From Clostridia bacterium (GTDB lineage Bacteria > Bacillota > Clostridia > Christensenellales > Christensenellaceae), in contig JAFXKX010000009.1 in assembly GCA_017531505.1 (NCBI GenBank), positions 62,001 through 126,000 of the forward strand: a stretch of 64,000 nucleotides of DNA, in the 5' to 3' direction. The translations under genes were made by a program, and so were the position numbers. Below the pieces are notes generated by a model. It made no database searches. It was not told the DNA's origin and saw nothing but the letters and a program-made list of their open reading frames with translations. Every line of letters begins with the position of its first letter. Position 1 is the first letter of the stretch. Shown here piece by piece: positions 7,652 to 47,951 of this stretch.

Positions 7652-7680
7652 ATTATACATTTTCTTCTTTACAGTGTCAA
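7652..7680 (-). promoter_or_regulatory. Consensus sigma-A promoter of the marR-ABC operon
   Basis: TTGACA (7675-7680) and TATAAT (7652-7657) are separated by 17 bp, a perfect consensus on the minus strand. Such a strong promoter makes sense if it is normally held by the repressor. Confidence 0.85.
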
Positions 7681-7716: not shown

Positions 7717-7742
7717 AACTGCCGCTGCCAAAGCAGCGGCAG
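7717..7742 (-). terminator. Terminator of the amidase gene
   Basis: CTGCCGCTGC (7719-7728) pairs with GCAGCGGCAG (7733-7742), 4-nt loop. On the minus strand the stem is followed by TTTTTATT. It insulates the amidase gene from the marR promoter. Confidence 0.85.
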
Positions 7743-7747
7743 TGGCA

Positions 7748-8347
7748 TCAATAAGGCACTCCGTTGTATCGGTAAATCAACATAGCTTGGTTTTCCGGTG
7801 TATCTTCACGATACGGAATATCAAAATACTGCAGTATTCCTTTGCTTACCGCCTGTCCCAACTCATAAATATTGTCTATGATAAACTGCGCATCCTCAGG
7901 ATTATCATGAAACGCCACTTCCAGCAATGCCGCCGGTGATGTCGTGCGCCTCAGTTCGTACATTCCCTGTCCGTTAAATGTGCTGTAGCCTTCCTTCACT
8001 CCCAGCCCTTCTGTCGGGGTCACTTCCTCTACCCGATCATATATATCCCGTGCCAATGCTTCCGCCGCACCGCCAAACCGATGGGCATAGATTTCCGCAC
8101 CCCGCGCCTGCCCTGCCGATGCATTGGAATGCAGCGCCACATGGATATCCGGGCGCAGCATATTGGACTCTGCCACCACCTCCTGCAGCCGCATTTCCGG
8201 CCGGTTGCGGTAAACACTCACTCCATGCCGCTCCAATTCATACTGTACAATATCTGCGATTTGATTCATCCGCTGCTCTTCTGTGCCATACATACCGTAC
8301 CCTACATTCCATTCCTGTAAAGACGGAGATAAATAAACGCTCGCCAT
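7748..8347 (-). CDS. N-acetylmuramoyl-L-alanine amidase family protein (Amidase_3 type)
   Basis: A 199-residue protein with the Amidase_3 layout: an N-terminal strand VYLSPSLQEWN, GTEEQRMNQIAD with a conserved glutamate, VALHSNAS with the zinc histidine, and LLEVAFHDN with the catalytic glutamate. The first zinc histidine of classical AmiC or CwlB enzymes is absent and LSPSLQ stands in its place; a clostridial subfamily shares this variation. No signal peptide is visible, so it may act inside a spore or after lysis. The ATG at 8347 has GGAGG upstream; an ATG at 8374 has none. The start codon lies in the 3' arm of a 12-bp inverted repeat (8337-8401). Confidence 0.8.
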   Translation of the reverse strand: MASVYLSPSLQEWNVGYGMYGTEEQRMNQIADIVQYELERHGVSVYRNRPEMRLQEVVAESNMLRPDIHVALHSNASAGQARGAEIYAHRFGGAAEALARDIYDRVEEVTPTEGLGVKEGYSTFNGQGMYELRRTTSPAALLEVAFHDNPEDAQFIIDNIYELGQAVSKGILQYFDIPYREDTPENQAMLIYRYNGVPY

Positions 8348-8401
8348 ACTGCCTCCTTTGATGTGTTCATTCACATCTTATGCCGAAGCTATGGCGAGCG
8401 T
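8337..8401 (-). promoter_or_regulatory. Inverted repeat enclosing the ribosome binding site and start of the amidase gene
   Basis: ACGCTCGCCATA (8337-8348) and TATGGCGAGCGT (8390-8401) pair perfectly over 12 bp. In the minus-strand RNA the 5' arm starts 18 nt after the ddl stop codon, the 41-nt loop holds a nested 6-bp hairpin (GATGTG/CACATC) and the Shine-Dalgarno AGGAGG, and the 3' arm contains the AUG of the amidase gene. TTTATTTAT follows. It may act as a ddl terminator, as a translational block, or as both. Confidence 0.55.
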
Positions 8402-8418
8402 GCATTTAATTTTTAGAA

Positions 8419-9591
8419 TCAGCCTTTGGCGCCTGTTTTGAGGCTGCCTTTGCCGACTTTGGAGAGGATCGCAGAGTCAAATGCATAGTTGCTCTTCATT
8501 TTTTCCTCTTTGCGGGCGATAGCGATATCTACCAGACGGTCGATCATCTCACGATAAGGTACTCCTGCCGGCTCAAACAAATAGAATGCGAAGGAGCCGG
8601 GAATGGTATTGATCTCGTTGGCATAAACATTGCCGGTAGCGTTATCGATCATAAAGTCAATACGTACAACGCCTTTCATATCAAAGCCCTTGAAAATCTC
8701 CAATGCATAACCACGGATCTGTTCTGCGGTCTCTTCGGGCAGAGGAGCGGGCAAAATGCGGTCCAAAGACTTCATACCCTTGCTGCCGCCGTTTTCGGGC
8801 AGATACTTGGTTGCAAAGTCCAGAATCTCACCCTTGGAGATAGGCTGTTCCAATACGCCGGCAACAGCATCTGCACCATTGCCCAGTACCGCACAGTTGA
8901 TCTCGGTCAGCTCATCGATCGCATGTTCGATCAGGATACGGCGGTCGTAGCTTGCCGCTACCTCCAGTGCATGCAGCAGTTCTTCCTTGTTATGCGCTTT
9001 GGAAATACCGATGCTGGAGCCCAGGTTTGCAGGTTTTACGATCATCGGATAGCCGATCTTTGCCTCTGCCTTCTCTACAATGCTCTCGGGGTTTTCGTTA
9101 TATTCTTTGCGTTCAAAATATAAGCAGTCCAGACAGGGAATATCCAGCCCTTTGAACGCAGCCTTGCTCAGGATCTTATCCATTGCTGCCGCACAGCCGG
9201 TAACACCGGCGCTGGTGTACGGGATATCTGCCAGTTCCATCAAGCCCTGCAATGTACCGTCTTCACCATGCATACCGTGCATAGCCAATACTGCCACATC
9301 AATACTTGCAACTGCCTTCATACCAAACGCAGTCTTTTTGAGCAATTCCTTACTGCCGGCTTCGGGGCTCAGCATTACACGGTCGATGCCCTTTTTATCC
9401 AGCTGCGGTTTCTGATAAAATACCGCATTTGCCAGTTCTTTGCCGGTATACCACAAGCCATCTCTGGTGATGTAAACAGGGATGATATTGTATTTTGCCT
9501 TATCTGCATTTTCGATCAGCTGCGTACCCGTAATGATGGATACGTCATGTTCTGCAGTTCTTCCGCCAAAAAATACAGCCAGATTGATCAT
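8419..9591 (-). CDS. ddl: D-alanine--D-alanine ligase family protein
   Basis: An ATP-grasp ligase of 390 residues that joins two D-alanines for the peptidoglycan stem peptide in the cytosol. Visible motifs are EHDVSIITG near the N-terminus, AMHGMHGEDGTLQG, the ATP-binding VKPANLGSSIGIS, the omega-loop DFATKYLPENGG, the magnesium-binding RIDFMID and NEINTIPGS. The tyrosine in the TKY part of the omega loop is as in D-Ala-D-Ala enzymes, and nothing suggests a D-lactate ligase. It is 12 nt downstream of murF, which uses its product, so the pair is functionally coupled. GAGGAAT is the ribosome binding site. Confidence 0.92.
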   Translation of the reverse strand: MINLAVFFGGRTAEHDVSIITGTQLIENADKAKYNIIPVYITRDGLWYTGKELANAVFYQKPQLDKKGIDRVMLSPEAGSKELLKKTAFGMKAVASIDVAVLAMHGMHGEDGTLQGLMELADIPYTSAGVTGCAAAMDKILSKAAFKGLDIPCLDCLYFERKEYNENPESIVEKAEAKIGYPMIVKPANLGSSIGISKAHNKEELLHALEVAASYDRRILIEHAIDELTEINCAVLGNGADAVAGVLEQPISKGEILDFATKYLPENGGSKGMKSLDRILPAPLPEETAEQIRGYALEIFKGFDMKGVVRIDFMIDNATGNVYANEINTIPGSFAFYLFEPAGVPYREMIDRLVDIAIARKEEKMKSNYAFDSAILSKVGKGSLKTGAKG

Positions 9592-29269: not shown

Positions 29270-29614
29270 AAAGTAGGATCGAGACGGCTCATACGCCGAG
29301 TTCTGTTTATATGACCATCTGTCTAGGCCTGTTGTTGCCAACAGGCTCGAGCGATTACACGAAGCTTAACGGGCCGCTATTCAATGCTCCTATATCAATC
29401 TTGCACCGGACGGGGTTTACAGGGAACCAAAGTTACCATTGGCTCCGGTGAGCTCTTACCTCGCCTTTCCACCCTTGCAGCTTGCGCTGCGGTATATTTC
29501 TGTTGCACTTTCCTTGAAGTCGCCTTCACCGGGCGTTACCCGGCGTCCTGCCCTGTGGTGCTCGGACGTTCCTCACCTCTTGCGAGCCGCGGTCATTTGT
29601 TCCGCTCGATCCAA
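29270..29614 (-). ncRNA. rnpB: RNase P RNA, bacterial type A
   Basis: This is the catalytic RNA that trims 5' leaders from pre-tRNAs. Read on the minus strand, the conserved elements appear in order: GAGGAACGTCCGAGC with CACAGGGCAG, the CGCCGGGTAACGCCCGG hairpin, GAAAGTGCAACAGAAATA with TACCGC, GGTAAGAGCTCACCG, AGACAGATGGT and ACAGAACTCGGC. The ends pair as stem P1: GGATCGAG (5' end near 29612) with CTCGATCC (29276-29283). The length is about 340 nt; the exact ends are estimates. The 5' end lies fewer than 10 nt after the stop codon of the upstream protein gene, and a terminator closes it. Confidence 0.93.
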
Positions 29615-46816: not shown

Positions 46817-47336
46817 ATTCTCTCCTCTTTTCTTTTAGAATGATACTTATAATCTTTGTCATTCGCACCCGAAATATACCATGAATTTCTGTCCGGATAC
46901 CGACCGTGTCATAATCGGGGCACAATCGGATATCACTGTTATGTACTGCATACTTCCGTATAAACAGATCGATCGCCTGTTGTCCCACACCGCAAAGCAG
47001 TGCCGTCTGCGCCGCATCTCCGGTCCCCAGATACAGCCGCGCTTCCAGCCGCAATACACAATCCGATAATTGCCTCCATAATCCCCGGCGTCGATTGCGA
47101 TTGTATCTGCCCGGGAAAAGCCACGTCAGCTTTCCTCTTTCAATTCTTATGACACGCGGCAAAAACCCATGACTGAAAAATACACAATATAAAAACCGAT
47201 ATACCGGGATACCCCAAAACCGTATGACCAAACCGATCGCCTCATGCCGATACAGCGTATGTACCTCTGCCCGTACATAGCTCATCAATATCGCCGTAAA
47301 AAAAAGAAGTACCAATCCCAATAAAAAAATACCCAT
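46803..47336 (-). CDS. DUF2953 membrane protein
   Basis: A 177-residue protein of the DUF2953 family, usually paired with ytfJ in sporulating Firmicutes. One N-terminal membrane helix (about residues 2-18) is followed by strand-rich sequence with basic patches (RYNRNRRRGLWRQL) and the conserved NSDIRLCPDYDT near the C-terminus. Function unknown. The ATG at 47336 has AGAGG 5 nt upstream and lies inside the 3' arm of a 14-bp inverted repeat (47324-47369). Confidence 0.85.
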   Translation of the reverse strand: MGIFLLGLVLLFFTAILMSYVRAEVHTLYRHEAIGLVIRFWGIPVYRFLYCVFFSHGFLPRVIRIERGKLTWLFPGRYNRNRRRGLWRQLSDCVLRLEARLYLGTGDAAQTALLCGVGQQAIDLFIRKYAVHNSDIRLCPDYDTVGIRTEIHGIFRVRMTKIISIILKEKRREYASD

Positions 47337-47369
47337 AATCACCTCTTCACTGTGCTATGGGTATTTTTT
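47324..47369 (-). promoter_or_regulatory. 14-bp stem that contains the DUF2953 start codon
   Basis: AAAAAATACCCATA (47324-47337) and TATGGGTATTTTTT (47356-47369) pair without mismatch. In the minus-strand RNA the stem starts 16 nt after the scpB stop; the 18-nt loop shows the Shine-Dalgarno sequence, and the 3' arm contains the AUG of DUF2953 followed by a U-run. It can end scpB transcription and can also hide the start codon. Confidence 0.65.
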
Positions 47370-47384
47370 CCTATGTTATAAAAT

Positions 47385-47951
47385 TTATGCCTGTTCTTCT
47401 TCCGACCATGTATCCTGCTCTCCAAACAGCGGCAGTTCCTCACCCTCACCGGGTAGTGCCGGCAGTTCTTCGATCGAAGCGACATCAAAATAGCGCAGAA
47501 ATGCTTGCGTAGTGGCATACAATTTCGGCCGTCCCAGTGCATCTTTTCTGCCCGCCACATAGATCAGGTCTTTTTCCAGCAATGCATTGATCGTATAGCT
47601 GCTGTTGACACCACGGATCTTTTCCACCTCATCTTTGGTAACAGGCTGCCGGTAAGCAATGATAGACAACGTCTCCATTGTAGCCCGCGACAATTCCGCT
47701 TCATTCTTTTCACCCAGCATTTCCACAATCAAGTCTGCGTATTCGGGACGTGTACACAACTGTACGCTATCCTCAAACCGGCGGATCATCAGCCCTGCGG
47801 TTTGTTCCCGTGCCTTCATTTCCTCTTCCAGCAGCTGCTGCAGTACATACTTATCCATATCCAACGCCATTGCCAGATCTTTGATAGCGACTGCTTCACC
47901 GGCCGTAAACAAAATATTTTCGATGATCCCTATGATTTTCACTTTATCCAT
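47385..47951 (-). CDS. scpB: Segregation and condensation protein B
   Basis: ScpB is the winged-helix kleisin partner in the SMC-ScpAB complex. The 188-residue protein has the double winged-helix pattern with IENILFTAGEAVAIKDLA, TMETLSIIAYRQPVTKDEVEKIRGVNS and LIYVAGRKDALGRPKLYATT. The start ATG at 47951 overlaps the scpA end by 8 nt. scpA and scpB are a fixed pair in Firmicutes. Confidence 0.95.
   Translation of the reverse strand: MDKVKIIGIIENILFTAGEAVAIKDLAMALDMDKYVLQQLLEEEMKAREQTAGLMIRRFEDSVQLCTRPEYADLIVEMLGEKNEAELSRATMETLSIIAYRQPVTKDEVEKIRGVNSSYTINALLEKDLIYVAGRKDALGRPKLYATTQAFLRYFDVASIEELPALPGEGEELPLFGEQDTWSEEEQA

Follow-up and report, generated by a model that had tools for sequence, protein, structure and literature searches.

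In the transposase gene of IS10/Tn10, the ribosome binding site (RBS) is hidden only in RNA that enters from outside. In phage T4, long RNAs started upstream of gene e (lysozyme) and of I-TevI hide the Shine-Dalgarno sequence (SD), the AUG or both, while late promoters located just before the RBS yield transcripts that omit the 5′ part; for gene e a 100-fold effect was shown by experiment (PMC3014915, PMC2988022). For Bacillus subtilis sigG (spoIIIG), a large hairpin has been proposed to act against read-through from spoIIGA-sigE; transcripts started at the gene's own promoter are unable to form it (PMC5942855). The present analysis concerns a 64,000-nt stretch of a Clostridia bacterium genome (contig JAFXKX010000009.1, positions 62,001 to 126,000; hereafter the window), in which an inverted repeat encloses the start codon of a gene for an N-acetylmuramoyl-L-alanine amidase located behind ddl, the D-alanine–D-alanine ligase gene. 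The hairpin probably locks the start of a sporulation-associated cell-wall amidase against read-through, and perhaps also serves as a terminator for ddl. Since T4 gene e and I-TevI work in this way, and sigG is proposed to, the amidase lock is a probable further instance of a known device. The likeness to gene e lies in a lytic cell-wall enzyme and in a hairpin expected only in upstream-started RNA; the T4 genes, however, are phage genes timed by late promoters, whereas the amidase is a bacterial gene known from sequence, and the U-rich stretch after its stem could also terminate transcription. Like sigG, it would be a sporulation gene behind another gene, with a hairpin excluded from own-promoter RNA, but it is a different gene, its upstream gene is vegetative and its candidate promoter is of the sigma-K type. 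The likeness to IS10/Tn10 is an RBS hidden in outside RNA; the difference is that IS10/Tn10 is a mobile element.

The arms of the amidase hairpin, ACGCTCGCCATA and TATGGCGAGCGT, are 12 bp long, perfectly complementary and separated by a 41-nt loop (Table 1). The geometry agrees with an earlier description made from the DNA letters (the sequence-only reading), which had placed the AUG and the first codons in the 3′ arm, a nested hairpin and AGGAGG in the loop, and the 5′ arm 18 nt after the ddl stop codon: the 3′ arm contains codons 2–4 besides the start codon, the nested hairpin has 6 bp, and 17 bases separate the stop codon from the 5′ arm, which begins at base 18. A U-rich stretch, TTTATTTATC, comes after the stem, and in the predicted fold the AT-rich flanks pair below the stem. 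The folding energy of the 101-nt RNA was −37.1 kcal/mol, against −19.9 ± 3.2 kcal/mol for shuffled sequences (z −5.4), and none of 200 dinucleotide shuffles equalled it. The frequency of such arms was assessed by scanning for perfect arms between the 5′ flank and the start region of 1089 called genes, the expectation being derived from 40 shuffles per gene. The genes belonged to three of the seven genomes of the genus set (G000 to G006): 202 to G000, which is the window's genome and is 80% complete, 751 to G005 and 136 to G001. Arms of at least 12 bp were found once in G000, at the amidase element (0.08 expected), three times in G005 (0.08 expected) and not at all in G001 (0.05 expected). A repeat or mobile element was considered and rejected: a 141-bp query found itself in G000, and its matches in three further genomes of the genus were confined to the beginning of the coding sequence.

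In the read-through RNA, opening the region from −15 to +5 of the amidase start costs 20.3 kcal/mol, compared with 8.5 ± 2.5 kcal/mol for 1000 shuffled 5′ flanks (p 0.001). RNA beginning near the predicted transcription start would be without the 5′ arm and would retain one half of the nested hairpin; when computed from −20, the cost falls to 3.8 kcal/mol (RNA to +40) or 6.5 kcal/mol (RNA to +25). The start region is computed to be accessible in own-promoter RNA, provided that the predicted start is right. We propose that during growth a polymerase running past ddl would produce RNA with both arms, in which the 12-bp stem and its extension would fold and bury the SD and the AUG, so that no amidase would be made; the stem and the following U-rich stretch may also halt transcription. 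During sporulation a mother-cell sigma factor, most likely of the sigma-K type and possibly sigma-E, would start transcription at an internal promoter, the outer end of the 5′ arm providing its −35 element and the loop its −10 element. This RNA would begin within the loop and leave the SD and the AUG open, and translation from the amidase's own promoter only would confine the enzyme to spore formation. As RNA from the internal promoter lacks the 5′ arm, the hairpin would act on read-through RNA only. The sequence-only reading had suggested control of amidase translation or partial termination, which fits the structure (a sequestered start codon, and TTTATTTATC after the stem), although conservation and the promoter came out differently from what it had anticipated. 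It had counted a separate promoter within the loop as evidence against its interpretation; promoter-like sequence does appear in the 5′ arm and loop, and is read here as completing the mechanism.

The B. subtilis sigma-K consensus consists of KCACM and GCATANNNTA (PMC3416734) with a spacer of 14–16 nt (PMC517825), while C. difficile sigma-K promoters have AC at −35 and a −10 element very similar to that of sigma-E (PMC3789822). The candidate in the window, GCACG-N15-GCATAAGATG, differs from the B. subtilis consensus by one mismatch per element. CATANNNT was found at −35 to −41 from the ATG in all five distinct amidase leaders (those of the window, G002, G003, G005 and Anaerofustis; the G006 leader is identical to that of G005 and was counted once). 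It is preceded by AC with 17 nt between them in the window, G002 and G005, 16 nt in Anaerofustis and 15 nt in G003. By comparison, only 25 of the 1089 genes had CATANNNT at −45 to −30, two of them being the window and G005 amidases, and seven, these two again among them, had CATANNNT plus AC 15–17 nt upstream. Since the amidase leaders share ancestry, this placement shows conservation, not five independent events. A strict form of the motif was present upstream of 4 of 751 genes in G005, 1 of 202 in G000 and 1 of 136 in G001 (1, 0 and 1 in the reverse-strand control). Two genes with similar ABC-ATPase-like starts (G005:486611-487381 and G000 C7:14213-14977) share a strict AC-N16/17-CATATTATA at −50.

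The same lock could be combined with a promoter of another class (sigma-E or sigma-A), the amidase then being a general or early-sporulation hydrolase and not a late lysis enzyme. This variant of the proposed mechanism has a minor but real chance of being correct: the AC at −35 amounts to two bases only, and divIC, described below, has the same architecture with a sigma-A-like TTGACA...TAATAT (by eye). It sits less well with the AC found 15–17 nt upstream in all five leaders, and a scan of the ddl–amidase gap of the window gave no sigma-70-type promoter and no terminator (terminator loops of 3–8 nt). The want of a terminator in that scan bears on a second, rather unlikely explanation, which is compatible with the lock: the hairpin would be a plain intrinsic terminator of ddl, a shrunken gap having put its 3′ arm over the amidase start, with start hiding as a side effect. 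Ordinary terminator-like stems do stand between ddl and the amidase gene in G003 and G005, and in the window the stem is followed by TTTATTTATC and extended by its pairing flanks. However, the stem enters the coding sequence, which is needless for a terminator, and a 12-bp stem with a 41-nt loop was absent from the output of a scan allowing loops of 3–8 nt; a 41-nt loop together with an interrupted T tract makes a poor intrinsic terminator. In G002, another gene lies between ddl and the amidase gene; the fold 3′ of ddl is a long AT-rich stem plus a T run, and the scan listed no co-directional terminator between the two genes. What follows ddl in G001 is a relative (judged by eye) of the gene found beyond the amidase in the window, which we take to be MarR-like.

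The sequence-only reading had likened the hairpin to an element at 47.3 kb; the likeness held for the architecture and not for the sequence. The 47.3-kb element is a start-enclosing hairpin between scpB, identified by TIGR00281 in G005 and by synteny in the window, and a DUF2953-like gene scoring 21.9 bits against a cut-off of 22. We take this gene to be ytfI and its neighbour to be gerW, both presumably with a role in sporulation as in B. subtilis. Folds showed a start-enclosing ytfI hairpin in the window, G002, G003, G005 and G006, with proteins 30–40% identical. The opening-energy test shows a locked ytfI start in each of the window, G002 and G003 (all p 0.005), while the value for G005 (0.15) is not significant. 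In the same three cases the −10 element fits GGNAANAMTR, with G(T/C)ATA 14 nt upstream, and G005 deviates; the sigma-F consensus used for this reading is that of PMC3416734. The 47.3-kb element is probably a better example of this class of lock than the amidase.

The evidence for such a class comes from a single well-scanned genome (800 kb of G005) and from orthologs of its hits. Arms of at least 10 bp occurred at 4 of the 179 co-directional G005 genes with gaps of 30–150 nt (0.28 expected), against 2 of 572 other genes (0.78 expected); the four are spoIVB, ymxH, sigK and ytfI, with gaps of 60–77 nt. By opening energy, nine of the 179 reached p 0.01 (about 1.8 expected) and 19 reached 0.05 (about 9 expected). 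The spoIVB start is locked (p ≤0.03) in G005, G003, G008, G023 and G024, and not in G022 (0.12), G025 (0.28) or G019 (0.93). For ymxH, locking was found in G005 and G002 (p 0.015) and not in G000 (0.065), G003 (0.83) or G018 (0.82); for yaaL, which is preceded by recR in G005, it was found in G005 and not in G003 (0.07) or G002 (0.87). Both sigK and divIC are locked in G005 (p 0.01). Combining 20 ortholog cases gave a Fisher p of 5e-7, and the amidase and ytfI alone (seven cases) 0.0015, carried by ytfI; these values are a guide only, both sets having been chosen after the folds were seen and the cases sharing ancestry. A duplex test with fixed windows gave p 0.92 and 0.43 for ytfI of G003 and G005 and 0.14 for spoIVB of G023; because fixed windows cut off short-loop hairpins, the opening-energy test was adopted in its place. 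The set covered by the latter excludes G006 genes that are copies of those in G005, the spoIVB of G018, whose start was not found, and that of G002, which lies at a contig edge, as well as ymxH of G008, G019, G022, G024 and G025, yaaL of G018 and a ytfI-like match in G022. As a base rate, 4 of 30 genes drawn at random from the 519 co-directional G005 genes with gaps below 250 nt had a sporulation name in NCBIfam (sigG, sigE and spoIIIAC over a cut-off, pdaB under its own); ytfI, one of the hits, fell in this sample as well and has no NCBIfam match. Similar locks are present at ytfI and spoIVB, where they are conserved, and also at ymxH, sigK and yaaL. A broader possibility, which we advance tentatively, is that these gaps are composite elements: a single gap of about 60–77 bp would serve as a lock or terminator for the upstream gene and hold the promoter (5′ arm and loop) and RBS (3′ arm) of a sporulation gene, insulating spore genes from growth read-through in this lineage, and would have arisen or been rebuilt repeatedly at the amidase, ytfI, spoIVB, ymxH, sigK and yaaL.

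Several individual gaps of G005 deserve description. In that of spoIVB (L109:2800-2900, G005:382800-382900), a perfect 15-bp arm pairs with the spoIVB start, and a sigma-G-like GCATA-N18-GATACTA lies in the arm and loop; this element is also present in G003, with altered arms. The ymxH gap (L102:5440-5505, G005:245440-245505) contains a terminator-like stem whose 3′ arm comprises the SD and a T-rich spacer before a TTG start, and carries a strict sigma-K-type motif. Ahead of the sigK start (L114:12450-12512, G005:492450-492512) there is likewise a terminator-like stem, whose 3′ arm includes the SD. Two of the genes upstream of the G005 hits are presumably recN and pyk. A mirror case is provided by the vegetative gene divIC (L099:3730-3810, G005:183730-183810), with an 11-bp start lock and the sigma-A-like TTGACA/TAATAT. 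Next to spoIVA, 12-bp arms pair with the start of a 128-aa open reading frame (ORF) that has no family match (L128:15790-15900, G005:775790-775900). The gene at G005:727512, like that at 755948, has an arm of 9 bp; neither is annotated, and other unannotated genes also rank high by opening energy. Together with the 128-aa ORF, these two genes are hits that fall outside the pattern.

The distribution of the amidase points to sporulation. Close orthologs (75–82% protein identity) are present in G002, G003, G005 and G006 besides G000, that is, in five of the seven genomes of the genus, and no match was found in G001 or G004; these two genomes also gave no match to any of the five spore markers searched (SpoIVA, the DUF2953-like protein, SpoIVB, YmxH and YaaL). 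In G000 itself, the DUF2953-like gene and YmxH are present, as are two neighbouring sigma factor genes resembling sigE and sigG (named by this resemblance).

A number of results weigh against the proposed mechanism or its generality. G000, at its 80% completeness, gave no match to SpoIVA, SpoIVB or YaaL, and its best match to the sigma-K model (249.6 bits) falls under the cut-off of 298.65 and is probably sigma-E. The candidate promoter in the window is imperfect, was spotted by inspection ahead of testing and matches only the loose form of the motif, AC-N16/17-CATANNNT, which was found upstream of 5 of 751 genes in G005, 4 of 202 in G000 and 4 of 136 in G001, against 4, 3 and 1 on the reverse strand. 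With the loose motif near background genome-wide, the case for the promoter rests on its place in related orthologs. By opening energy, none of the four other amidase orthologs is significantly locked (G002 p 0.13, G003 0.61, G005 0.19, Anaerofustis 0.42), and in the cruder duplex test one of the four is (G005 p 0.011; G002 0.13, G003 0.83, Anaerofustis 0.20). Outside the discovery genomes, only 7 of the 20 ortholog cases of the wider class reach p < 0.05. The class is not restricted to spore genes, since divIC, located 384 nt behind yabP, which is a spore gene, shows the architecture, as does the gene at G005:755948, which ranks fourth of the 179. A lock at sigG, as expected from B. subtilis, was not supported in G000 (opening energy p 0.59) or G005 (0.21).

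The sequence-only reading had proposed looking for conserved pairing in relatives; none of the orthologs of 75–82% identity contains the hairpin sequence, and neither does Anaerofustis. There is no clear conservation of the amidase hairpin itself, and a conserved structured RNA at this gene was rejected, as neither sequence nor pairing is kept in the orthologs, the G005 duplex value (p 0.011) being the exception. The ordinary terminators between ddl and the amidase gene in G003 and G005 may explain why a lock is not needed there. This absence from orthologs would also agree with the inverted repeat being a neutral, unselected accident, such as a template-switch copy of the gene start; no strain of the same species was found for comparison among the seven genomes of the genus and four loci in genome contigs. 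Such an accident is nevertheless improbable, given that arms of at least 12 bp were expected 0.08 times in 202 genes and that unrelated genes show the architecture again, some of them with conservation. It is very improbable that the hairpin is a cis-regulatory RNA (a thermosensor, riboswitch or ribosome-coupled switch) acting on a ddl–amidase message during growth: the sequestered SD and AUG and the nested hairpin would suit one, but an Rfam scan of the window at the gathering score gave RNase P only, with no riboswitch, thermosensor or leader family at the amidase start, no structure is conserved at the gene, an opening cost of about 20 kcal/mol would be very high for a thermosensor, and a ribosome at the ddl stop codon would probably fall short of a 5′ arm 17 nt further on.

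Table 1. Positions in the window of the features at the amidase start and of the 47.3-kb element
Feature	Position	Strand	Basis or remark
ddl, D-alanine--D-alanine ligase, upstream gene	8419..9591, stop 8421-8419	minus	NCBIfam NF002528 304.4 bits (cut-off 262), Pfam PF07478 and PF01820
Candidate sigma-K-type -35, GCACG	8399..8403	minus	4/5 match to KCACM, by eye
5′ arm, ACGCTCGCCATA	8401-8390	minus	Sequence and fold; outer end overlaps candidate -35
Candidate sigma-K-type -10, GCATAAGATG, 15-nt spacer	8374..8383	minus	Consensus GCATANNNTA, last base differs
Nested 6-bp hairpin in loop, GATGTG/CACATC	8377-8372 with 8365-8360	minus	5′ half overlaps candidate -10
Predicted transcription start, -20 from ATG, inside loop	8367	minus	Placed 6 nt after candidate -10
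SD of amidase gene, AGGAGG	8357-8352	minus	Partly paired in read-through RNA (fold)
3′ arm, TATGGCGAGCGT, with start codon and codons 2-4	8348-8337	minus	Sequence and fold
TTATTTATC, directly after 3′ arm	8336-8328	minus	
Amidase_3 N-acetylmuramoyl-L-alanine amidase, 199 aa	7748..8347, ATG 8347-8345	minus	Pfam PF01520 72.1 bits (cut-off 27)
47.3-kb element, start-enclosing hairpin between scpB and ytfI (DUF2953-like)	47323..47371	minus	Folds, opening energy
Sigma-F-type GCATA-N14-GGAAAAAATA	GCATA 47386-47390, GGAAAAAATA 47362-47371	minus	Overlaps 5′ arm of 47.3-kb element

Downstream of the amidase gene, a terminator-like stem (7718-7743) stands just ahead of a perfect sigma-70 promoter, TTGACA-N17-TATAAT (7652-7680, minus strand), which precedes the MarR-like gene. 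The RNase P RNA detected by Rfam is of the bacterial class A type (29276-29608, minus strand).

The amidase domain match begins at residue 20, and no signal peptide was evident by eye. The three best matches among solved structures were Cwp6 (5j72), CwlV (1jwq) and LytH (7tj4). Assignment as the germination amidase CwlD was rejected, TIGR02883 giving only 33.3 bits against a cut-off of 221.55. In B. subtilis, CwlC and CwlH lyse the mother cell, and in C. difficile CD1898 and CD2184 possibly do so, all of them being amidases under sigma-K (PMC3789822, PMC517825). The window enzyme, likewise an N-acetylmuramoyl-L-alanine amidase, may be of this sigma-K mother-cell-lysis type. The timing of the late B. 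subtilis amidases is ascribed to GerE (PMC517825), not to an RNA lock.

A literature search that covered few subscription papers found none on such locks at spoIVB, ytfI, ymxH, sigK or an amidase; what may be new is the repeated use of the lock, combined with a stem resembling a terminator, where vegetative and sporulation genes adjoin. It is important that lysis of the mother cell does not occur too early (PMC517825). Spore genes often lie directly behind growth genes, and leakage of an enzyme that lyses the wall would do harm. With its promoter placed inside a lock, such a gene would be kept silent without a dedicated repressor; recurrence of the device at many clostridial spore genes would make it a general principle of insulation.
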